This document shows positions 39,005 through 50,984 of a stretch of DNA of 64,000 nt, piece after piece. This DNA is from an uncultured Elusimicrobia bacterium (GTDB lineage: Bacteria; Elusimicrobiota; Elusimicrobia; UBA1565; UBA9628), in assembly GCA_903830945.1 (NCBI GenBank), contig CAIKVT010000055.1, positions 1 to 64,000 on the forward strand, read 5' to 3'. How positions within the stretch are numbered: position 1 is the stretch's first letter; every line of letters starts with the position of its first letter. The notes under the pieces were generated by a model, which saw only the letters and a program-made list of their open reading frames with translations, was not told the DNA's origin and did not search any database. The translations under genes and the position numbers were made by a program.

Positions 39005-39304
39005 CTATTTGTGGATCTTGATCGAGATCTGCTCGAGATACTTCTCGATATCGTCATGCGGCCGCGGGATGACATGGATGGCGACCATCTCACCCACTTT
39101 TTGAGCCGCCGCCGCACCGGCGTCCACGGCCGCGCGCACCGCGCCGACCTCGCCGCGACACAGGGTCGTCACCAGGCCCGAGCCGATTTTCTCGTAACCG
39201 ATCATATGCACCTTGGCCGCCTTGGCCATAGCGTCAGACGCCTCGATCATGCCCACAAAACCCTTCGTCTCCACCATCCCCAGAGCTTCCTTTATCTCCG
39301 CCAT
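39005..39304 (-). CDS. BMC-H microcompartment shell protein
   Basis: A 99-residue single-BMC-domain protein that forms hexamers tiling the flat facets of the shell. Signatures are [19 protein letters not shown], a pore loop EKIGSGLVT and [23 protein letters not shown] before the ATG is a strong ribosome-binding site. The C-terminus extends beyond the core to ISIKIHK. It is one of two hexamer genes in the operon. Confidence 0.96.
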
Positions 39305-39386: not shown

Positions 39387-39674
39387 CTACTGCTCGTCGC
39401 CCGGCATCTCCGGCGGCTGCTCCAACATCGCGTTGCACCGACTGCAGCGCTTGGCCGGCCCATAGGTGCGCACGCACTCGTCTTTCTCAGGCCACCACTC
39501 CTCGAAATACATCTCCGCCCGCTTCTGACAGCGCAGGCAGTAGCGCTCCATGCCCGCTCCGCAGCAGGGACAGAACTTCGGGAACTCCTCGCCGCGCAGA
39601 TGCGTCAAGGTCCCGCAGGCCCCGCACTGGATGTCGAGCTTGAGCTGATATTTGACCGGCTTGTTCTTGGCCAT
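39387..39674 (-). CDS. Small zinc-ribbon protein inside the BMC operon
   Basis: A 95-residue protein with four Cys pairs: CGAC, CPCC, CLRC and CSRC. Two zinc ribbons or one treble-clef plus ribbon are likely. It also has aromatic FEEWWPEKDEC. There is no hydrophobic segment or signal. It lies 2 bp after deoC and 82 bp before the BMC-H gene, so it belongs to the operon, but I know no zinc-ribbon component of a microcompartment. Roles as regulator, assembly factor or metal store are all open. Confidence 0.65.
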   Translation of the reverse strand: MAKNKPVKYQLKLDIQCGACGTLTHLRGEEFPKFCPCCGAGMERYCLRCQKRAEMYFEEWWPEKDECVRTYGPAKRCSRCNAMLEQPPEMPGDEQ

Positions 39675-39676
39675 GC

Positions 39677-40702
39677 TCAGTAGCCCTTGCCTGCCGAGGC
39701 CTGCCCGGACACGATGGCGACCGAAGCCGAAGTCCCCAAACGGGTGGCCCCCGCCTGGATCATGGCGTCCGCCGTCTTGGTGTCCCGGATGCCGCCTGAG
39801 GCCTTGACGCCCATCAGCGGCCCCACGGTCTGGCGCATGAGCCGCACATCCTCGACGGTAGCCCCGCCGCCGCCGAAACCCGTGGAGGTCTTGACGAAAT
39901 CCGCGCCGGCTTTTTTGGACATGATGCAGGCGCGCACCTTCTCCTCGTCGGAAAGCAGCGAGGTCTCCAGGATGACCTTGAGCACCTTGCCGCGGGTGGC
40001 CTCGCGCACGGCCTTAATATCATCATAGACCACGACGTCGTTACCCGACTTAAGGGCCCCGACGTTAATAACCATGTCGATCTCCTCGGCGCCGTTGGCG
40101 ATGGCGTCGCGCGCCTCCACGGCCTTGACCGTGGACGTCGTGGAGCCCAGCGGAAAACCGATCACGGTGCAGACCTTCACCCCCGATCCCTGCAGAAGTT
40201 GGGCGCTGTAGTCGACGTATGACGGGTTGATGCAGACCGAAGCAAAACAGTACTTGCGCGCCTCCTCGCAGAGCTTGGCCACTTCGGCCTGGGTGGCGTT
40301 GGGCTTGAGCAAGGTATGGTCCACCATACGCGCCACGGACGAGACGTGTGCCGTAGGTTGGCAGACCGCGATGCGGTCGGCGCCCAGGGCCTTCAAAGTG
40401 CTGGCGGTCGCACCGGCAAAGGACGCGCAGCGGCCGCAAGCGTTGCCCTCGCATTCAACAGGTCCCGGCCCGTCGCCCCCGCAAGGCAGACGTTTTCCTG
40501 CCCCGGAGGAAGCCGGCTTGCCGGGCGTCCATCCCGGGGACGAGAAGACCTTTCCGGCCGAGCCGACCGTGGTGAGAGTGGGGCTCTCGGGCCTCTTGGG
40601 AGCAGGCTCGCAGCATGCCGGGCTGCCGGACTTTAAATAGCCCTTCCCAGCCAAAGTCCTGACCACTTCCTCGACGATCTTGCGAAGGTCCTGTTCGTTC
40701 AT
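39677..40702 (-). CDS. deoC: Deoxyribose-phosphate aldolase with N-terminal encapsulation extension
   Basis: A 341-residue enzyme that splits 2-deoxyribose 5-phosphate to glyceraldehyde 3-phosphate and acetaldehyde. The aldolase core is residues 125-341 with the catalytic set Asp209 ([10 protein letters not shown]), Schiff-base Lys271 (FVKTSTG) and Lys300 (GVKASGGIR). About 120 extra residues precede it: an amphipathic helix [20 protein letters not shown] like an encapsulation peptide, a Gly/Pro/Ser linker, then a Cys-containing segment (Cys84, Cys89, Cys92 in C-x4-C-x2-C). Normal DeoC is about 220-260 residues. Placement between shell genes supports lumen targeting and defines the operon as sugar-phosphate type. 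Confidence 0.94.
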
Positions 40703-40711
40703 GATATTTCC

Positions 40712-41008
40712 TCAGGTGTACTTCTTGACCTTGCCGCCGGATGAAACGGTATCCACGACCGCGCACACCACCGTGCGCACGGGCGCGGCCTCATCTTGGA
40801 TGATGCTGCGCGCCGATCCGCCCTCGTCTACCACCAACACGATGCTGCCGGGGCCTGACTGCACGCCCCCGTCCATGGCCATAACCACATCACCGACGCT
40901 CTCGCCGGTCACAGGATGGATGGGCCGAACCAGAAGCAATCGACGGCCCTTGAGGGACGGGTGCTTGCGGGTCCCCCAGACATTGCCCACAACCTCGCCG
41001 ATGAACAT
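40712..41008 (-). CDS. BMC-P (EutN/CcmL) vertex shell protein 1
   Basis: A 98-residue pentamer-forming protein capping shell vertices. It starts MFIGEVVGNVWGTRKHPSLKG, continues LLLVRPIH, VVMAMDGGVQSGPGSIVLV and ends CAVVDTVSSGG, all typical of the EutN/CcmL fold. One of three paralogues here; it is 2 bp from the next BMC-P gene. Confidence 0.96.
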   Translation of the reverse strand: MFIGEVVGNVWGTRKHPSLKGRRLLLVRPIHPVTGESVGDVVMAMDGGVQSGPGSIVLVVDEGGSARSIIQDEAAPVRTVVCAVVDTVSSGGKVKKYT

Positions 41009-41010
41009 GT

Positions 41011-41289
41011 CTAGTTCCTGAAATCCCTGATCTGGTGGCCTTCCACGATAGCCACAACAGCCGCGTCCACGGGCGGCAAGTCCTGGAAAGCGACCGCGGC
41101 CTCGCGGGATGCGACCCAGAAGACCTTCTCCGAGGCGCCGGCGCCCACCGCATCGGCCGCCACGACCGGATCGCCCAGCGGCGACTCGTCATCCCATCGC
41201 AGGGGTTGGATGAGGAGCAAAGTCTTGCCGTCTATGGCCGGATCCTGCCGCGCGCAGAAAACCCGGCCCACCACTCTTGCCAGCTTCAC
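41011..41289 (-). CDS. BMC-P (EutN/CcmL) vertex shell protein 2
   Basis: A 92-residue EutN/CcmL family protein (MKLARVVGRVFCARQDPAID, LLLIQPLRW, AADAVGAGASEKVFWV). The C-terminus (AIVEGHQIRDFRN) lacks the usual VDxV end, so it is the most divergent of the three. Its start overlaps the stop of the RpiB-like gene by four bases. Confidence 0.93.
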   Translation of the reverse strand: MKLARVVGRVFCARQDPAIDGKTLLLIQPLRWDDESPLGDPVVAADAVGAGASEKVFWVASREAAVAFQDLPPVDAAVVAIVEGHQIRDFRN

Positions 41290-41735
41290 TTGGAGTATTT
41301 CTTCTCTATGCCCGCGATCTTGGCCAGGCGCCCTTCGTGCCGGCCGCCCTCGAACTTAGTCCCGAAGAAGACATTAAGGATCTCCGCCAGGATCAACTCA
41401 CCGTGGGTCTTGCCTCCCAGGCAGAGCACATTGGCGTCATCATGCGCCGCGGCGAAGCGCGCCGAGACCGTATCGTAAGCCGCGACCGCGCGCACGCCCG
41501 GCACCTTGTTGGCGGCCAGGGCCACGGCACCGCCGAAGCCGTCGATAAGAACGCCTTTCTGGCAATCTCCGCGGGTCACGGCCTCGGCCACAAGCTGGGC
41601 CACGTCCGGGTAGTCCACGCTCTCGGGTGAGTGGCAGCCGAAATCCGAGACTTCGTGCCCGAGCTTCTGGATGGTCTTCTTGACGAATTCCTTGGCGGCG
41701 AAGCCGCCGTGGTCCGAGCCGATGATTATCTTCAT
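41286..41735 (-). CDS. RpiB/LacAB-family sugar-phosphate isomerase with altered catalytic Cys
   Basis: A 149-residue RpiB-fold protein. Conserved phosphate/sugar-binding residues are Asp8 and His9 (IIIGSDHGG), His98 (AAAHDDANVL) and Arg132-His133 (FEGGRHEGR). The catalytic Cys of E. coli-type RpiB (Cys66, in ICGTG) is replaced by Asp65 in LIDGFGG, and the alternative Glu of the mycobacterial type (four to seven residues on) is Val here. It is therefore either an isomerase with different chemistry (ribose 5-phosphate or another pentose/hexose phosphate) or a binding protein. ATGA overlap with the BMC-T gene upstream. Confidence 0.85.
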   Translation of the reverse strand: MKIIIGSDHGGFAAKEFVKKTIQKLGHEVSDFGCHSPESVDYPDVAQLVAEAVTRGDCQKGVLIDGFGGAVALAANKVPGVRAVAAYDTVSARFAAAHDDANVLCLGGKTHGELILAEILNVFFGTKFEGGRHEGRLAKIAGIEKKYSK

Positions 41736-42283
41736 TTGCCCACCGTTTCCAAAAGTTGTTCATCCGCCCGCGCTATCACCACATAGGAAACCAGCCCTGC
41801 CTCGGGCACTGCGCTGATGCCGGCTGCGACAGCGGAACGGACGGCCCCGACCTCTCCCGTCATGGTCACATAGCCCTTGCCACCGCCCACCGTGGTCCGG
41901 GTCTCGATAAGGGAGACGGCTGCCGCCTTAGCCGCGGCGTCGGCCGCGCGCACCGCGGCAATGGCGTCCTTGGTCTCAATGATGCCCAAAGCATCCAGTT
42001 CTTTGACCGGGACGCGCTGGTCCAAGGTCTCTAGGACTTGGTTGTGCACGTTGCGGATGAGGACCTCGTCGATGAGGTCCTGACCCAGGAGTTGACGTCC
42101 GGCGCGCAAGGAGCTTTCCACCTCGCCTACCGGCCCGGTGATGATGATGATGTACTTGCCTCGAGCGATGACCCCGGCGCGCGCAAGCTTGACCGAGGCC
42201 ATCTTGCACATGGCGTCGGAAGCCTCGATACCCTTGGCGATGGATGCCGTCTCCAGAAGTCCTATGGCGATGTTGGCCAGCAT
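41732..42283 (-). CDS. BMC-T tandem-domain shell protein
   Basis: A 183-residue protein with two BMC domains (about residues 1-92 and 96-183) that forms pseudohexameric trimers. Domain 1 has AIGLLETASIAKGIEASDAM and domain 2 ALGIIETKDAIAAVRAADAA with GEVGAVRSAVAAG. No Cys ligand for an Fe-S cluster in the pore is evident, unlike PduT. The ATG at 42283 follows GAGGTG at five bases; a GTG six bases upstream is possible. Confidence 0.93.
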   Translation of the reverse strand: MLANIAIGLLETASIAKGIEASDAMCKMASVKLARAGVIARGKYIIIITGPVGEVESSLRAGRQLLGQDLIDEVLIRNVHNQVLETLDQRVPVKELDALGIIETKDAIAAVRAADAAAKAAAVSLIETRTTVGGGKGYVTMTGEVGAVRSAVAAGISAVPEAGLVSYVVIARADEQLLETVGK

Positions 42284-42290
42284 GTTCACC

Positions 42291-43730
42291 TCACGCGATC
42301 CTAAAATAGCCCACGACGCAGCAATGCAGCGGCCTGACGAAATGCGAGGGCTTGGTGATCCCGTCCCCGGTGGGCGTGCCGATGGACATGGAAGCGTAAC
42401 CCTCGCCCAGACCCAAGCCGTAAAGAGTCGGAGCGTTCTTAACGTAGATGGAGCACTGCAGGCGCCGAGCCATGCGGGTCAGGTTCCCAATATGAGTCGA
42501 GTACATGGCGGCAGAGTGGTGGTTGCCCCCCTCGGCCTGATAGGCCAGCTCGATGGCCGCGTCCACGTCCCTCGCGGAAGTGACGGGCAGGACCGGCATC
42601 AACTGTTCGGTCCAAATAAGGGGGTGGTCGTTGGGCACTTCGCCCCACAACAGGCGCGTCCCCGGCGGCACGTCCAGGCCGATGCCCTTGGCGATGACCG
42701 CCGCATCGCGACCCACATAGTCGCGGTTCATGACCGGGTCCCCGCGACCATTCCCCCCTTCTATGACCACGAGCTTAGTGACGGCGTCCATCTGCGCGGC
42801 GTTGAGCTCGAAGGCCCGCGGATCATTACGCATACTCTCCAAGAACCGAGCCTTGGCCGCCTCGACCACGATGACTTCCTTTTCCGCGATACACAACACG
42901 TTGTTGTCGAAGCTCGCTCCGAATATGATGTCCTCGGCGCACTTGGGGAACAGCGCGGTTTCATCCACCACCACCGGCGGGTTGCCCGGCCCGGCCGCGA
43001 TGGTCTTGCAGGTCTTGCCCGTGGTCATGGCCACCTTCACGATGGCCGGGCCCCCGGTCACCATATTGAGGTTGACCCCAGGGTGGGCCAAAAGGGCCTT
43101 GGTCGTCTCCTGGGAAGCCGGAGAGACCGTGGTGATGAGGCCGCAGGGGACCCCGGCCGTCTTGGCCGCTTGGACCAAGACGCGCATCGCGTCGACACAG
43201 ACCTTGGCCGAAGCCGGGTGCGGGGCGAAGACCACGGAATTTCCCGCCGCGATTATGCCGATGGCGTTGGAGATGATGGTGGCGACCGGATTGGTCGAGG
43301 GCGTGATGGCGGCCACGACGCCGAAGGGCGCGTACTCCACCAAGGTCATGCCTGTGTCGCCGGTGTAGGCCCGGGACTGCAAGTCCTCCACCCCGGGAGT
43401 CCGGGTCGCGCATAGGAGGTTCTTCTGCGTCTTATCCTCGGCACGGCCCATCCGCGTCTCTTCCTGGGCCATCCGGCCCCAGCGCTCAGCGTTGGCGATC
43501 GCCGCCCTGCGCATGGCCTTAATGGCGGCCTTACGGACTTCGAGGCCCTGATCCTGAAAATCCTTCTGCGCCCGCGCGGCCGCGGAAACGGCGGCATCCA
43601 CGGTGGCATAAACGACATCGTCGCCGGGCGCCGGCAACGAAGCTTTTGGACTCACCAAGTCGAGCCCGCCCTGGGTCTCCAGGCGCTTCAAGACCTCGCC
43701 GACGATCCGCGCTATCTCTTCAGCCTGCAT
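42291..43730 (-). CDS. CoA-acylating aldehyde dehydrogenase of the microcompartment
   Basis: A 479-residue PduP/EutE-type enzyme that converts acetaldehyde to acetyl-CoA with NAD+. The N-terminal helix MQAEEIARIVGEVLKRLETQ plus a Pro/Ser linker is a classic encapsulation peptide. The catalytic domain has ITPSTNPVATII, the CoA/NAD region GPGNPPVVVDETA and the nucleophile Cys280 (NNVLCIAEKEVIV). The ATG at 43730 gives exactly the peptide start; upstream in-frame residues are Arg/Ser-rich and probably untranslated. Overlaps the BMC-P gene 3' end by 11 bp. Confidence 0.95.
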   Translation of the reverse strand: MQAEEIARIVGEVLKRLETQGGLDLVSPKASLPAPGDDVVYATVDAAVSAAARAQKDFQDQGLEVRKAAIKAMRRAAIANAERWGRMAQEETRMGRAEDKTQKNLLCATRTPGVEDLQSRAYTGDTGMTLVEYAPFGVVAAITPSTNPVATIISNAIGIIAAGNSVVFAPHPASAKVCVDAMRVLVQAAKTAGVPCGLITTVSPASQETTKALLAHPGVNLNMVTGGPAIVKVAMTTGKTCKTIAAGPGNPPVVVDETALFPKCAEDIIFGASFDNNVLCIAEKEVIVVEAAKARFLESMRNDPRAFELNAAQMDAVTKLVVIEGGNGRGDPVMNRDYVGRDAAVIAKGIGLDVPPGTRLLWGEVPNDHPLIWTEQLMPVLPVTSARDVDAAIELAYQAEGGNHHSAAMYSTHIGNLTRMARRLQCSIYVKNAPTLYGLGLGEGYASMSIGTPTGDGITKPSHFVRPLHCCVVGYFRIA

Positions 43731-44028
43731 CCCTGTCCTCGGACTTCTTGAAGACGACCTTGCCGCCCTGCTCCACCGTGTCGACGATCGCAAAGATGAC
43801 CGCGTCCACGGGATTACCCTGGGTGCGCGAGGTCTGGCGGGCGCTGGAACCCTGCACGATCAGGACCAGTTCCTTCTCGCCGGCCCCCACCGAGTCCACG
43901 GCCACGATGGGGCTGCCTTTGGCGGCACCGACGAGGTCCACGGGCTGCACCAAAAGGAGTTTGCACCCGACGAGCTTCTCATCTTTCTGAGTGCAGACGA
44001 CGTTTCCCGTCACGCGTGCGAAGATCAA
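43720..44028 (-). CDS. BMC-P (EutN/CcmL) vertex shell protein 3
   Basis: A 102-residue EutN/CcmL protein (MIFARVTGNVVCTQKDEKLV, LLLVQPVDL, AVDSVGAGEKELVLIV, FAIVDTVEQGG). It resembles the first pentamer protein more than the second. A third BMC-P gene in one operon suggests mixed or interchangeable vertices. Confidence 0.96.
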   Translation of the reverse strand: MIFARVTGNVVCTQKDEKLVGCKLLLVQPVDLVGAAKGSPIVAVDSVGAGEKELVLIVQGSSARQTSRTQGNPVDAVIFAIVDTVEQGGKVVFKKSEDRDAG

Positions 44029-44042
44029 TCTGGGATCCTCGA

Positions 44043-44339
44043 TTACTTACGACGGACGAGGTTCTCAGGCAAGGAAATGGGCATCTTGCCCTCCAGGTCC
44101 GGATGCGGCTGCGGGATGACGTGGCAGGCGAGAAGCTCGCCGACCTTCTGGGCCGCCGCGGCGCCCGAATCGCAGGCCGCCTTGCAGGCAGCGACCTCGC
44201 CCCGGAACAGGACGGTGACCAGGCCGGTCCCGACCTTCTCATAGCCCACGAGCTTGACGTCAGCGGCCTTGACTGCGGCATCCGCGGCCTCGATACAGGC
44301 TACCAATCCACGAGTCTCGATCATTCCCAGTGCGTTCAT
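44043..44339 (-). CDS. BMC-H microcompartment shell protein 2
   Basis: A 98-residue single-BMC-domain protein: [20 protein letters not shown], pore loop [24 protein letters not shown]. The pore sequence differs from the other BMC-H (GTG instead of GSG), and it has more Cys residues. The first 80 residues match the other hexamer closely; the C-terminal tail ([11 protein letters not shown]) does not. Confidence 0.96.
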
Positions 44340-44351
44340 TGTGCATTCCTC

Positions 44352-44987
44352 CTATACGATATAGGCCAGATCCCCATTCTTGACGCCGGCGGCGTTGGCC
44401 TCGTCGGTGTCCAGATGCAGCGCCAAACTAAATTTATCCGACACCCGCACGATCGCACCTTCAAAAACCGTCTCGCGCTGCCCGCCCCGCCCCACGCGCA
44501 CCCGTACGGTCTCGCCGTTGGCAAGGCCAATGGCGCCCGCATCGCCGGGAGCGCAATGCAGGTGCCTCCGGGCCAGGATGAGCCCCTCCCGCAACTCGAC
44601 GGACCCCGCGGGCCCCACGAGCGTCAAGGCCGCCGACCCTACCAGGTCCCCGGACTCGCGCACCGGCGGCTGGGCGCCCAGCGTGATGGCCTCGGTCCAG
44701 GACACCTCGATCTGGGTCTTGGATCGGAAAGGCCCGAGGAGCCGAACGCCCTTGATGCTCCCCTTGGCACCCATGACGTCCATCTTCTCGTGGGACGCGA
44801 ACTGGCCAGGCTGGGAAAGGTCGCGAAATCTGGAAAGAACAGCTCCTTTTCCAAAAAGGGTCTCAAAATGCTCCTTCGTGACATGCGCGTGCCGGTTGGA
44901 CACGCCGATAGGGACAGGGGTCTTCGAACGCCGCAGACGCTTCTCGATCTCCACGGCCAGCCCCTGAACCAACTCGGCATTTTCCAT
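44352..44987 (-). CDS. pduL: PduL-type phosphate propanoyl/acetyltransferase
   Basis: A 211-residue zinc-dependent phosphotransacylase that converts acetyl-CoA and phosphate to acetyl phosphate, recycling CoA inside the shell. It begins MENAELVQGLAVEIEKRLRR (encapsulation helix), then VPIGVSNRHAHVTKEH with metal ligands His33, His35 and His40, and RRHLHCAPGDA with His142 and His144. The ATG at 44987 gives the typical 210-residue length and lies 7 bp after the tpiA stop; the frame upstream overlaps tpiA and is rejected. Confidence 0.95.
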   Translation of the reverse strand: MENAELVQGLAVEIEKRLRRSKTPVPIGVSNRHAHVTKEHFETLFGKGAVLSRFRDLSQPGQFASHEKMDVMGAKGSIKGVRLLGPFRSKTQIEVSWTEAITLGAQPPVRESGDLVGSAALTLVGPAGSVELREGLILARRHLHCAPGDAGAIGLANGETVRVRVGRGGQRETVFEGAIVRVSDKFSLALHLDTDEANAAGVKNGDLAYIV

Positions 44988-44994
44988 CAGGGAT

Positions 44995-45771
44995 CTAAGC
45001 CTTGGCCTCGACCTGGAACCGGGCGATACGCGCGAAGGCGGGCGCCTTGAGGCTGGCACCGCCCACTAAAGCGCCGTCCAAGTCCGGCTGGGCCATGAGG
45101 TTGTCCACGTTCTCGGCCGTGACCGAGCCTCCGTAAAGGAGGCGCAGTCCGGCAGCGAATCCCTCGCCGTAGAGCTTGGCGGCCTGCTTGCGCAGAAAAA
45201 GATGAGCCTCCTGGGCCTGGGCAGGAGTCGCGGTGACGCCGGTGCCGATGGCCCATACAGGCTCGTAAGCAACGACGACCGAGGACACATCCGCGGGCGC
45301 GAAGCCCTTCAAGCCGCCGGCCATCTGGGTCTCCAGAACCCGAAAGGTCTGATTGGACTGACGCTCGTCGAGGGTCTCGCCCACGCAGACGATGGGGATG
45401 AGCTTGGCGGCCAGAGCGGCCTTGAGCTTTCTGTTGACCGCCTCATCCGTATCGCCGAAGAGGCGCCGGCGCTCGGAATGTCCAATGATGACGTGCGTGG
45501 CGCCTGCGTCGACGAGTTGCCCAGCGGAGACCTCTCCGGTGAAAGCGCCCTGCGGCTCCCAATAAAGGTTCTGCCCCCCCAACCGCACATGGGTGCCTTT
45601 GACGACCGCGGAGACGACCGTCAAGGCGGTGAACGGCACGCAGACCGCCACCTCGGCCGGAGAATCCTTTGTGGCGTCGCACACCGCCTTAGCCAGATCC
45701 ACGGATTGGGCCAAGGTCAAGTGCATCTTCCAATTGCCTGCGATCAACGGCCGCCTGATGGGAGAGGTCAT
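44995..45771 (-). CDS. tpiA: Triose-phosphate isomerase
   Basis: A 258-residue TIM-barrel enzyme with Lys15 (AGNWKMH), the catalytic His in IIGHSERR and Glu in [11 protein letters not shown] all intact. As first gene of the operon it would pull glyceraldehyde 3-phosphate from the aldolase into dihydroxyacetone phosphate. No encapsulation peptide is seen, so it probably works in the cytoplasm. It may be the only triose-phosphate isomerase of the cell. AAAGGGG precedes the ATG; a 19-bp palindrome lies just upstream. Confidence 0.96.
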
Positions 45772-45788: not shown

Positions 45789-45807
45789 TGTGGCCATTTT
45801 GGCCACA
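45789..45807. promoter_or_regulatory. 19-bp palindrome, candidate operator of the BMC operon
   Basis: TGTGGCCA-TTT-TGGCCACA, two perfect 8-bp arms with a 3-bp spacer, 18-36 bp before the tpiA ATG. There is no U-tract on either side, so it is not a terminator. It sits where a repressor would block transcription or where an early leader would fold. TTGATT and AT-rich candidate promoter elements lie just upstream on the minus strand. The regulator is unknown. Confidence 0.65.
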
Positions 45808-45848
45808 TATTGCGAATCAATTTATCTTAGAAGAATCAGCGACGGAAG

Positions 45849-46445
45849 TCAATACTGGGAAAAAGGCATGACAAATTCGCCCAAGGTACCCGGATGATAG
45901 TTCTCCTTCTGATGGGACCTGGGGCTCCTCTTGATGCGAACCGCATAGACACCCGCCTGGCGCGCGTCCATGATAAAAGAATCGCCGTCAGCAAAGACCA
46001 GGACGAAATTGCTCTTCTCCAGGAAGTTCTTCTTATCCCCACGGTCCGCGGCGAAGAAAAATAATGTCTTGGGCGTCAGCCGCCGCCACTCCTTGCGCAA
46101 AGCCTCCCCATCCGTAGATGGCCGGTCGGCGATGATGGCGACCTTGAAGCCGAACAATCGGAACGCCCAGGCCGCCCCTTGGGCCAGGAACTTGGGCTGC
46201 TCGATGTCATAGCTGCGGTTGACCACGGACCAGAATTGGGGCGTAAAGGGTTGCTGGACGCTCGCGAAAGCCTTGACATAGGCCGGCGTGGAGAAGACCA
46301 GGCCGTCGTCGTATTCAAAAGCCACGGCTAGCCTGGTGATGGTCGCCAGGCTGAAGATCAGCCCCCAGCAGCTCATCAAAGCCAGAATCTTCTTGGTGGT
46401 GGTCCAGGCGGCTTCGGTTTTGGCGCGGACGGATTTCAAGACCAT
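45849..46445 (-). CDS. AphA-like class B acid phosphatase homologue with altered nucleophile
   Basis: A 198-residue protein with one N-terminal membrane anchor (about 19-41) and a HAD IIIB fold like AphA. Alignment from memory: AphA motif FDIDDT corresponds to FEYDDG (43-48), so the nucleophilic Asp is Glu44 while Asp46 remains; motif II VTGR is IADR (105-108); motif IV YGDSDND is FADGDS (151-156); the C-terminus G-E-F/E-V and final Tyr match. Activity is therefore doubtful. It ends the phosphatase operon, 78 bp before tpiA. Confidence 0.7.
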   Translation of the reverse strand: MVLKSVRAKTEAAWTTTKKILALMSCWGLIFSLATITRLAVAFEYDDGLVFSTPAYVKAFASVQQPFTPQFWSVVNRSYDIEQPKFLAQGAAWAFRLFGFKVAIIADRPSTDGEALRKEWRRLTPKTLFFFAADRGDKKNFLEKSNFVLVFADGDSFIMDARQAGVYAVRIKRSPRSHQKENYHPGTLGEFVMPFSQY

Positions 46446-46446
46446 A

Positions 46447-48012
46447 TCAATCTCCCAGAAGAACCAAACGGTCGGCGGGCGGAGGCAAGATCCGGGGCTT
46501 CTTCAACGCGCACCCCTGCATCACGTCCCGCATCGTCGTGTTGGTGAAATCTTTGCTCACGGCCGCGGCGAAAGCCGTGTACCCGTCGCCGCCCTTGACC
46601 AGGAAATCGACGGTAGCCACCGTATACGTAGACTCATCGACCAACTCTTTGCCGGATATGCGGACCGACTCCAGGCGATGACCCGGCGGCGCGTGACGAT
46701 GGAAAGTCACGCGCGCTCCAGAGATCTGACCCATACGGGCCATGCCAACGGCTTGATCCAGCAAGGACTTGACATTTTTGCCCTTCATGACCAGCTTGAC
46801 CATTTTGTTGCCGTATGGCGCCGCGTAGAAAAGACTCCGCAAAGTCACAGGCCCAGCCGGGATGTCGTTGCGAAAAACCCCGCCGTTCTGGAGCGCCAGG
46901 TCCGTGCCGGCCCAATCCCGCTCGCAATCAGTCACCCAGTCGCCCAAGGCAGACTCGCCGTCTCGATTGCGCGTCAAGGCGACCACAGCCGTCGCCACCA
47001 CCACGTCGTAGAGGCGCTGGACGTCCCGGGAGATCTTGGCCACGGCCTCGACCACGACCGGAGCAGATCCGGTCACGTCCAGCCAGAGCTCCACAATCCG
47101 GGCCGAGGACTGAACCACTTTCTTGGTCCCTGGATCGATCTCCAATGTGACCTCGCCTACGCAGGTCAAGTCCGCTCCCGCCTGCACGATCAGGGTGCCG
47201 TGAGTCTCATCGCGCACACCCCTCTCCAAAACCGTATGGGTATGGCCGCCCACGATGAGGTCGATACCCTCGACCTGCGCGGCCAGAGTCCGATCTCCTT
47301 CGAAAGCCGGGCCGCTCGGCGATTCAAACCCTTGATGCGTCAAAGCGATGATGACCGTAGCACCCTGGTCGCGCAGGGCCGCGACCGCGCCGCGGGCCTC
47401 GTCTATGCCTCGGCGAAAGGTCAAGCCGGCGATGCTCTCCGGCATGGTGCCCGTCTCCATGCGGGTGCTCAGCAGGCCGAAAATGCCGATCTTGACACCG
47501 GCCACGTCCTTGACGACCCAGGGCTTGCACTCAGACGCGTGCTGGGCCACGGAATGATAGACGTTCGCGCACAAGACCGGAGCCTTGAGCTCCTGGATCA
47601 TCTCCTGGAGATTCTTCTCCCCGTTGTCGAATTCGTGATTGCCCACTTCCAAAGCATCGTAGCCCACCGCGTTGAACACGCCGGCCAGGGCTTGGCCCCC
47701 GCGCAGGGCGCCTTCGGGGGTTCCCTGGAACCAGTCGCCGGCATCCAAAAGAATCTTTGGGCCTTTGACCTTCTTAACGTAAGCGGCCAAGGCCGCGGCG
47801 CCGCCGATGAGACGCTGGGGATCTTTCTCGTAAAAGACCGCGGGCCGGGGCATGATCCCGCCGTGGATGTCATTGGTGTGCAGAACGGTGATACGGATGT
47901 TCACGGCGCTGACCGGCACGGCCGCGATCTGGATTCCCAGCGCCGCCACAACCCCCCACGCGAGCCGTTTCAGGCCCGACTCGCGCAGGCAGTCCGATGT
48001 CACGGCTTCCAT
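46447..48012 (-). CDS. Exported 5'-nucleotidase/UshA-type metallophosphatase
   Basis: A 521-residue secreted enzyme. Signal peptide at residues 14-36 (cleavage near PVSA). The metallophosphatase domain (38-320) has LHTNDIHGG (44-52), GDWFQGTP, GNHEFDNG and GGHTHTVLE; the C-terminal 5_nucleotid_C domain (about 345-510) binds the substrate (ALQNGGVFRNDIPAG, VDFLVKGGDGY). Substrates are probably 5'-nucleotides, giving nucleoside plus phosphate in the periplasm. Its ATG overlaps the stop of the P4-like gene. Confidence 0.93.
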   Translation of the reverse strand: MEAVTSDCLRESGLKRLAWGVVAALGIQIAAVPVSAVNIRITVLHTNDIHGGIMPRPAVFYEKDPQRLIGGAAALAAYVKKVKGPKILLDAGDWFQGTPEGALRGGQALAGVFNAVGYDALEVGNHEFDNGEKNLQEMIQELKAPVLCANVYHSVAQHASECKPWVVKDVAGVKIGIFGLLSTRMETGTMPESIAGLTFRRGIDEARGAVAALRDQGATVIIALTHQGFESPSGPAFEGDRTLAAQVEGIDLIVGGHTHTVLERGVRDETHGTLIVQAGADLTCVGEVTLEIDPGTKKVVQSSARIVELWLDVTGSAPVVVEAVAKISRDVQRLYDVVVATAVVALTRNRDGESALGDWVTDCERDWAGTDLALQNGGVFRNDIPAGPVTLRSLFYAAPYGNKMVKLVMKGKNVKSLLDQAVGMARMGQISGARVTFHRHAPPGHRLESVRISGKELVDESTYTVATVDFLVKGGDGYTAFAAAVSKDFTNTTMRDVMQGCALKKPRILPPPADRLVLLGD

Positions 48013-48834
48013 TGGCGCAGCAGCGCCTTGCGGAGCTTGTTCTGCTCCTCCGCAGGAACACCCTTCTTGTTATCCTTGATCGCCTTCTCCCAGGCGCCGT
48101 ACATCGGGTTGGGCAGCACGATGAACCGCTTGCCCCACTCGTCCTTGTGCGCGTCGGAGATCCGATATCGCTCCTCGATCGGCTTCTGGTAGATGCTGAT
48201 CGGATAATCCTCGAGGTTGTCGCCTACGTACGCCACGAGATGGTACTTCTCCTCCAGGGCCATCTGGCGGGGCTGCTTGTCGTCGCTGGCCCCTTTCTGC
48301 CTGTAAACCACATGCTCGGCGTCGACGGATGGGTAGCCCAGCTTCTTCAGGTTGTCCAAGGTCCCCTGATACTCGAGGTCGACCTTGCGATTGGTGACAT
48401 AGTAGGTCTCCACGCCCTTGGAGGCCGCGTAAGTAAGGAATTCCACCGCTCCGGGAATGGCTTTGCCGCTGGCGCTGGCCACCCAGTCATACCACTGGCT
48501 CGGATACTCGAGGTCCTTGCCGATCATGTAGGCCTCATACTCATTAGCCTGGATCGTGGTTTCGTCGCCGTCTACGATGACGATCCTTTTCTTGTCCGTC
48601 TTGACCTCGGCCAAGTCCTTGTCCAGCATCATCCGGGCCATGTTGTAGGCTTGCTGGCAAAGAGCGCGATACTCCGCGGACGTCTGGACCCATAAGGTCG
48701 CCATGACGAGTTGCTCGTTGAGGTCTTTCAACGAGTAGGGTTTCTCGACCGGGATGGTCTGCGCCCGGACCGGAAAGCCGACCGTCAGACAGGCCGCGAA
48801 GAAAACGGCCGAGTAAAGAACTTTGCATTTTTTC
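48000..48834 (-). CDS. HAD-type acid phosphatase, lipoprotein e(P4) 5'-nucleotidase family
   Basis: A 278-residue exported phosphatase. A signal peptide (residues 1-25) has FAAC, a weak lipobox, or may be cut after VRA. The HAD motifs are intact: VIVDGDETT with Asp89 and Asp91, YYVTNR (145-150) and YVGDNLEDY. Class C enzymes of this family dephosphorylate nucleoside monophosphates including NMN. The GTG start (first base 48836) is chosen because AAGGAGG lies seven bases upstream. First gene of the operon that continues with the UshA-type enzyme. Confidence 0.88.
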
Positions 48835-48869
48835 ACAATATCGCCTCCTTCTCAAATCCCTGAAGCGCC

Positions 48870-50549: not shown

Positions 50550-50984
50550 ATGCCCATGGGCAGATCAAAAGCAGCAGTCGCGGTCCTGGCGCTGGGATTG
50601 GGCGCCTGCCGCAGCACAGCGCCGGTCAAGGAGAAGGCTATGCTGGAATGGAAGGGACAGTTCGCCAGCGTGCTCCAAGGCGCGCAGCGGGTCATCGAGT
50701 CCACGGCGCAATGGAAAACGCTATGGTCCGAGATCGGCCAGGCCGCGCCGGCCGCGCCGGACTTCAAATCATCTTTCGCGGTCGCCGTCTTCCTTGGGCA
50801 GCGCAATACGGGCGGCTACCGCGTCGAGTGGCTGCAACCCGACGCCTCCGGCGCGGCCACCGTGGTAAGATATAAAGAGATGACGCCACAGGGCATCACG
50901 ATGCAGGTTATGACCCAACCGTACGCCGTCAAGGTCTTCCCGCGGGGCCAGCGCCAGATCAAGGTGGAGGCGGCGCAGGATTGA
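50550..50984 (+). CDS. Lipoprotein with PrcB-C-like domain
   Basis: A 144-residue lipoprotein: signal peptide with lipobox LGAC near residue 20. Residues 65-140 (FAVAVFLGQRNTGGYRVEWL; QGITMQVMTQPYAVKVFPRG) match the PrcB_C domain pattern found in the protease-complex subunit of Treponema and many secreted proteins (from memory). 11 bp after tldD, so probably in the same operon. May bind or support an exported protease. Confidence 0.75.
   Translation: MPMGRSKAAVAVLALGLGACRSTAPVKEKAMLEWKGQFASVLQGAQRVIESTAQWKTLWSEIGQAAPAAPDFKSSFAVAVFLGQRNTGGYRVEWLQPDASGAATVVRYKEMTPQGITMQVMTQPYAVKVFPRGQRQIKVEAAQD

Follow-up and report, generated by a model that had tools for sequence, protein, structure and literature searches.

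Bacterial microcompartments (BMCs) of the sugar-phosphate utilization (SPU) type have already been proposed to catabolize products of DNA (PMC4207490, PMC8217296). In Haemophilus influenzae, the periplasmic enzymes AphA, NadN and e(P4) convert nucleotides to nucleosides (PMC10694654), and UshA and AphA take part in the growth of Escherichia coli on nucleotides (PMC8475336). Here we analyze a 64,000-nucleotide stretch from an uncultured Elusimicrobia bacterium of the order UBA1565 (positions 1 to 64,000 of contig CAIKVT010000055.1, assembly GCA_903830945.1; hereafter, the window), in which genes for relatives of these enzymes, P4, UshA and an AphA-like protein that we term AphL, stand before an SPU-type BMC operon. 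We rate the chances as even that UshA and AphL are a long-standing module for nucleotides in the periplasm, which in this order stands before the SPU operon and feeds it, with AphL being a former phosphatase and P4 a late addition. That SPU microcompartments scavenge DNA has been proposed solely on the basis of gene content; an exported nucleotidase conserved beside the organelle, together with a nucleoside route, puts this idea within reach of testing and supplies candidates for the entry enzymes.

A conserved UshA-AphL pair beside the microcompartment operon

The cluster lies on the minus strand and begins with the gene for a P4-type class C acid phosphatase (a 5'-nucleotidase of the lipoprotein e(P4) family, identified by a curated model; 48000..48836, with a GTG start). 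This is followed by the genes for a UshA-type 5'-nucleotidase (46447..48012), in which the domains, the metal/catalytic residues and the base-stacking aromatics are conserved, and for AphL (45849..46445), a protein of the AphA (class B) fold on an N-terminal membrane-anchor helix, with FEYDDG in place of FDYDDT. The P4 and UshA genes overlap by 13 bp, and 1 bp separates UshA from AphL. The preliminary description of this DNA had placed P4-type, UshA-type and AphA-like genes here, in an operon ending 78 bp before tpiA on the same strand; positions, strand and family kinship all hold, and the gap measures 77 bp. It had also called all three products exported, which fits the signal-like N-termini of P4 and UshA but not AphL, which resembles a signal-anchored membrane protein.

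We compared 56 genomes of the order, representing 19 genera (G, L, g and f denote genomes, fetched loci, genera and families, respectively), and counted adjacencies by hand from the match tables for AphL, PduL and UshA. AphL is present in 53 of the 56 genomes and 18 of the 19 genera, and PduL, the phosphotransacylase of the BMC operon, in 52 genomes. Among the 50 genomes with both, the two genes lie less than 4 kb apart on the same strand in 40, 8-10 kb apart on one contig in two, and on different contigs in eight; three genomes have AphL with no PduL match. The adjacency in relatives on which the scavenging proposal had been staked is hence conserved, and it persists at AphL identities down to 37%. 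UshA matches were recovered in 49/56 genomes; of the 53 genomes with AphL, 41 have UshA immediately before it; in three further genomes AphL begins at a contig end, and in genus g10 (four genomes with AphL) UshA is located elsewhere. Across the fetched regions of most genera the gene order is UshA, AphL, tpiA and then the BMC operon. UshA and AphL are an ancient pair of the Elusimicrobiota.

When nine loci were searched with a profile for an overlooked UshA next to AphL in g7, g9 and g10, the sole match was in L080, a locus that bears UshA anyway. In g10 the BMC shell domain is found in none of the five genomes, yet a tpiA-pduL-deoC-aldehyde dehydrogenase-zinc ribbon cluster is retained (L077:5012-10066; also L092 and L100), with a different, 796-residue dehydrogenase, constituting a shell-less SPU core. 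Genes named by eye as rplM-rpsI occur a few genes upstream of UshA/AphL in L064, L072, L079, L075, L099 and L145; this neighborhood spans several genera and a lineage without the BMC, and may mark the former site of the module.

P4 has a different history. It scores above the NCBIfam cut-off for lipoprotein e(P4) (TIGR01533, 238.5 versus 216 bits), is related to solved class C acid phosphatases in a comparison with PDB, and displays by eye an imperfect lipobox, FAAC, in its signal-like N-terminus. However, only 8/56 genomes of the order have a P4 match, all six congeners of the window's genome lack one, and P4 adjoins the BMC operon in the window alone, where it fills the slot in which many relatives have a gene of about 190 residues (DUF47/PhoU-like). 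This distribution rules out P4, UshA and AphL as one conserved unit, and with it the phosphatase trio of the preliminary description; P4 is, judging from its occurrence, a late and private acquisition, predicted to add a second phosphatase. In a separate locus (L141:9977-11664), an intact phosphatase of the AphL type precedes a P4-like one (28% identity), with no UshA or BMC gene in the locus; the AphL of this host groups with that of a UBP18 metagenome-assembled genome.

The BMC operon continues on the minus strand with tpiA (triosephosphate isomerase, 44995..45771), pduL (listed open reading frame 44352..45059, the start probably internal at about 44987, by eye), a BMC-H shell protein (44043..44339), an EutN/CcmL (BMC-P) shell protein (43720..44028), an acylating aldehyde dehydrogenase (42291..43733), a BMC-T shell protein with two BMC domains (41732..42289), rpiB (ribose-5-phosphate isomerase B, 41286..41735), two EutN-like (BMC-P) shell proteins recognized by eye from their translations and conserved in relatives (41011..41289 and 40712..41008), deoC (deoxyribose-phosphate aldolase, 39677..40702, with a long N-terminal extension that by eye resembles an encapsulation peptide), a small zinc-ribbon-like protein conserved in the operon (39387..39674) and a second BMC-H shell protein (39005..39304). 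Domain and family models recover the gene set that defines SPU microcompartments, namely the DeoC aldolase, RpiB and an aldehyde dehydrogenase together with shell proteins; hence, by gene content, the microcompartment is of the SPU type, with catabolism predicted to occur inside the shell. Near the module, the window (50550-50984, PrcB_C domain) and L147 (11642-12175) encode related proteins. In genome G000 (contig C31), L088:6177-8029 carries a lone BMC-T gene beside one for an RnfC/PduS-like electron-transfer protein (rnfC model, 213 versus 246 bits), possibly a satellite locus for cofactor recycling.

The gap between AphL and tpiA holds a promoter-like site, TTGACT-17-TAAGAT (45824..45852, minus strand), conserved in relatives, and just downstream of it a palindrome, TGTGGCCAnnnTGGCCACA (45789..45807), a candidate operator or leader hairpin. 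With up to three mismatches, the palindrome is found in 40 of the 45 tpiA upstream regions (these being chosen from the fetched loci with a triosephosphate isomerase hit rather than from all 56 genomes), versus 27 of 2250 random windows drawn from the same loci, some of which may overlap the true site. The five regions lacking it come from three shell-less g10 genomes, from L125, in which no shell gene was seen, and from L147, which has no BMC. This conserved combination implies that the BMC operon is probably a separately regulated unit, and provides an entry point to the organelle's regulator. In g3 loci (L068:3164, L089:4082, L090:2961 and others) a second near-palindrome, TGTGGACAATATGGCCACA, lies upstream of the module, and palindrome matches also fall within UshA of g5.

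An intact UshA and a probable pseudophosphatase

The window UshA combines Metallophos and 5_nucleotid_C domains with intact metal ligands, and its nearest solved sequence is 3ivd. Since it falls below every NCBIfam equivalog cut-off (NF007109, 180.9 versus 600 bits), we regard it as UshA-like rather than as UshA in the strict sense. All nine metal/catalytic positions are intact in 29 of 31 aligned UshA sequences, the two degenerate ones being paralogs from L145 and L146, outside the order. These (L145:8385-9959, L146:8519-9994) are UshA-like proteins with lipoprotein-like N-termini that have lost all metal ligands and are encoded directly upstream of a catalytically dead AphL; L145 additionally carries an intact UshA.

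AphL has no Pfam hit and does not pass the curated AphA model (TIGR01672, 41.4 versus a cut-off of 195.8 bits). Nevertheless, a profile of the AphL family matched just five of 177635 distinct PDB sequences, all AphA chains, and Foldseek searches with its AlphaFold model (predicted local distance difference test score 91.8) placed AphA at ranks 1-13 (best E-value 1.2e-10, template modeling score 0.73). AphL, on the strength of this model and profile, has the HAD fold of the AphA type. Class B AphA enzymes are defined by a catalytic DDDD motif (PMC8475336), in place of which the window AphL has E-D in motif I and D followed by F in motif IV: the nucleophile Asp is replaced by Glu, the Thr of motif I by Gly, that of motif II by Ala, and the last Asp of motif IV by Phe. 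These substitutions speak against the earlier description of AphL as a phosphatase.

The nucleophile is retained in 29 of 47 AphL sequences and lost in 18, including all seven of the window's genus. The replacement is Glu in this genus, in g7 and in L145/L146, Gly in g9 and g10, Cys in G030 and Thr in G032. On a tree built without the catalytic columns, the losses amount to five changes (4-5 across bootstraps), of which well-supported branches force only two; the union of g7 with g9 was flagged as a meeting of long branches, and L147 is itself a long branch. Within the genus, the ratio of nonsynonymous to synonymous substitution rates (dN/dS) of AphL is 0.11-0.15, near that of tpiA (0.08-0.16) and below that of UshA (0.27-0.55); AphL is therefore no decaying gene but one under purifying selection. 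Among the AphL genes of the order, that of G051 has a stop inside its match. Taken together, these features point to the AphL of the window's genus probably being a membrane-anchored pseudophosphatase.

A bolder proposal, which we consider unlikely enough to be offered only tentatively, is that AphL was repeatedly converted to a pseudophosphatase (4-5 nucleophile losses with different replacements on the best tree) and was selected as a membrane-anchored sensor or scaffold tying the periplasmic supply of nucleotides and phosphate to the SPU microcompartment. The dead AphL and UshA-like lipoprotein of the sister lineage may then be a non-catalytic binding pair. If true, the repeated and selected loss of AphL catalysis would be a clean case of bacterial pseudophosphatase formation.

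Nucleotides, phosphate and the role of the module

The preliminary description had noted that a nucleoside transporter, a nucleoside phosphorylase and phosphopentomutase are missing from the window, and had asked whether such genes lie elsewhere. In the window's genome, genes for a purine nucleoside phosphorylase, a pyrimidine nucleoside phosphorylase and uracil phosphoribosyltransferase (upp) do form one cluster, all scoring above their cut-offs, while a NupC-type transporter (416 versus 442) and a phosphopentomutase-like protein (219 versus 256) fall below theirs. Across the order, PNP_UDP_1, a broad family, is found in 56/56 genomes, PYNP_C in 49/56 and Nucleos_tra2_C in 51/56. A nucleoside route is accordingly predicted to exist in the genome, and neither of the two outcomes that the preliminary description had set as refuting its proposal, lack of adjacency in relatives or lack of nucleoside genes, came about. 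Extra genes within the operons of relatives were rejected as candidates for the missing nucleoside enzymes; by eye they encode PDZ-type, lipoprotein-like and unrelated proteins.

Whereas the genes, their families and adjacency, the loss of residues, selection and the conserved promoter-like site and palindrome are observed here, enzyme activities, cellular locations, the current role of AphL and the following flow of metabolites are inferred. UshA would remove phosphate from nucleotides in the periplasm; the resulting nucleosides would enter via NupC and be split with phosphate by the purine and pyrimidine nucleoside phosphorylases; and the phosphopentomutase-like enzyme would yield (deoxy)ribose-5-phosphate. 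DeoC, RpiB, the aldehyde dehydrogenase and PduL would process the sugar inside the shell; TpiA would handle triose phosphate, and the freed phosphate would probably be used too, as the Pit and DUF47 neighbors in relatives suggest. AphL, formerly an AphA-like phosphatase, would in this genus most likely assist the periplasmic machinery, as its partner or as a subunit that binds a ligand. The feeding of the SPU compartment by nucleotides draws support from conserved adjacency, an intact UshA, the nucleoside route and precedent; in this outline the nucleotide part of the earlier nucleotide/DNA scavenging unit survives, though its picture of three phosphatases does not.

Several observations weigh against such feeding. 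The BMC operon is probably regulated separately, and its palindrome was not found at the nucleoside loci L178-L180 with up to two mismatches, which led us to reject a palindrome common to these loci and the operon. The deoB model matches in 11/56 genomes of the order, never above its cut-off. Of the nucleases that the preliminary description had suggested looking for, Endonuclease_NS, the only extracellular family searched, is absent from the window's genome and present in 5/56 of the order. In g7 and g9, AphL lies beside the BMC operon and UshA matched in none of the five genomes (one of them 62% complete); conversely, the pair occurs without a BMC at L145-L147, and AphL without any BMC match in G032, G020 (75% complete) and G028 (70% complete). 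The private nature of P4 and the probable loss of AphL catalysis in the genus count in the same direction, as do Pit and DUF47 neighbors, which suggest phosphate rather than carbon as the commodity.

This last point underlies an alternative that we find doubtful but deserving of attention, namely that the module is an operon for acquiring phosphate (Pit, DUF47/PhoU-like, UshA, AphL) that lies upstream of the BMC operon by chance, with nucleosides incidental. In family f3, and in L147, an Elusimicrobia locus without a visible BMC gene, UshA is immediately preceded by a DUF47/PhoU-like gene (three such proteins score 57-74 bits with PF01865, above the Pfam cut-off); the ~190-residue protein of the corresponding slot in f1 is a divergent DUF47 (hhalign probability 99.8, E-value 7.5e-29); and the gene for the transporter Pit (PHO4) lies just before DUF47 in G006, G007, G009, G010 and L147. 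The separate promoter-like site of the BMC operon is also as this alternative would have it. Such neighbors imply that the module probably originated as an operon for phosphate and nucleotides, and phosphate acquisition may be the older role of the pair. Yet UshA and AphL persist where DUF47 is strongly diverged, in f1, and where P4 has taken its slot, in the window; Pit does not adjoin the module in f1; and the position of the pair by the SPU operon across three families is left unexplained. Elsewhere in the window's genome, a gene for a Pit phosphate transporter (L178:4416-5399) and the cluster of nucleoside phosphorylases are some 2 kb apart.

Decidedly unlikely, in our estimate, is mere inertia of synteny, whereby a single ancestor of the order passed on the pair and the BMC operon as neighbors with no functional coupling. 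The confinement of the association to a single clade, the separate promoter-like site and palindrome of the BMC operon and the location of AphL and PduL on different contigs in 8/50 genomes (some being contig ends) would all accord with this. However, other flanking genes vary among genera while UshA-AphL-tpiA is constant, and this over a span in which AphL identities drop to 37%.

As to where AphL resides, all 47 AphL sequences have a 17-residue hydrophobic segment behind a positive N-terminus (mean hydropathy 2.23, minimum 1.89), which most likely acts as a signal anchor. It is highly improbable that AphL is instead cytosolic and bound to the microcompartment by this helix: although the AlphaFold model has one continuous helix (residues 2-36) running into the first strand of the core almost without a linker, W27, F31, S32 and T35 are invariant in 35 sequences, which is unusual in a plain membrane anchor, and tpiA adjoins AphL in most loci, the hydropathy of the segment, the retention of AphL in shell-less g10 and the likeness of outgroup copies to plain signal anchors all oppose this placement.

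Comparison with known systems

Phosphate uptake operons of the Pit-DUF47 type are common; in some relatives Pit and DUF47 stand upstream of UshA-AphL, whereas the window's family has a divergent DUF47 and carries Pit at another place. In E. coli, ushA and aphA are unlinked and AphA is soluble. The DDDD motif is intact in the E. coli AphA (PMC8475336), unlike in the window AphL. Haemophilus influenzae deploys the same three kinds of enzyme as the window (PMC10694654), with an active AphA; the window, in contrast, has a UshA-type protein for NadN, a degenerate AphL and a private P4, and its cluster is followed by a BMC operon.

While the use of DNA products by SPU compartments is already published, we did not find in the open-access PubMed Central (PMC) literature any mention of UshA-AphL as neighbors of such a compartment, of AphL having repeatedly lost its catalysis, of an ancestry with Pit/DUF47 or of the conserved palindrome; in their main texts, PMC4207490 does not use the word 'nucleotidase', and PMC8217296 uses neither 'phosphatase' nor 'elusimicrob'. 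As described in these sources (Axen et al. 2014, PMC4207490; Sutter et al. 2021, PMC8217296), SPU BMCs are like that of the window in DeoC, RpiB, the aldehyde dehydrogenase, PduL and shell proteins, and in some cases tpiA. To this shared complement the window adds the upstream UshA-AphL module and a conserved promoter-like site with its palindrome.

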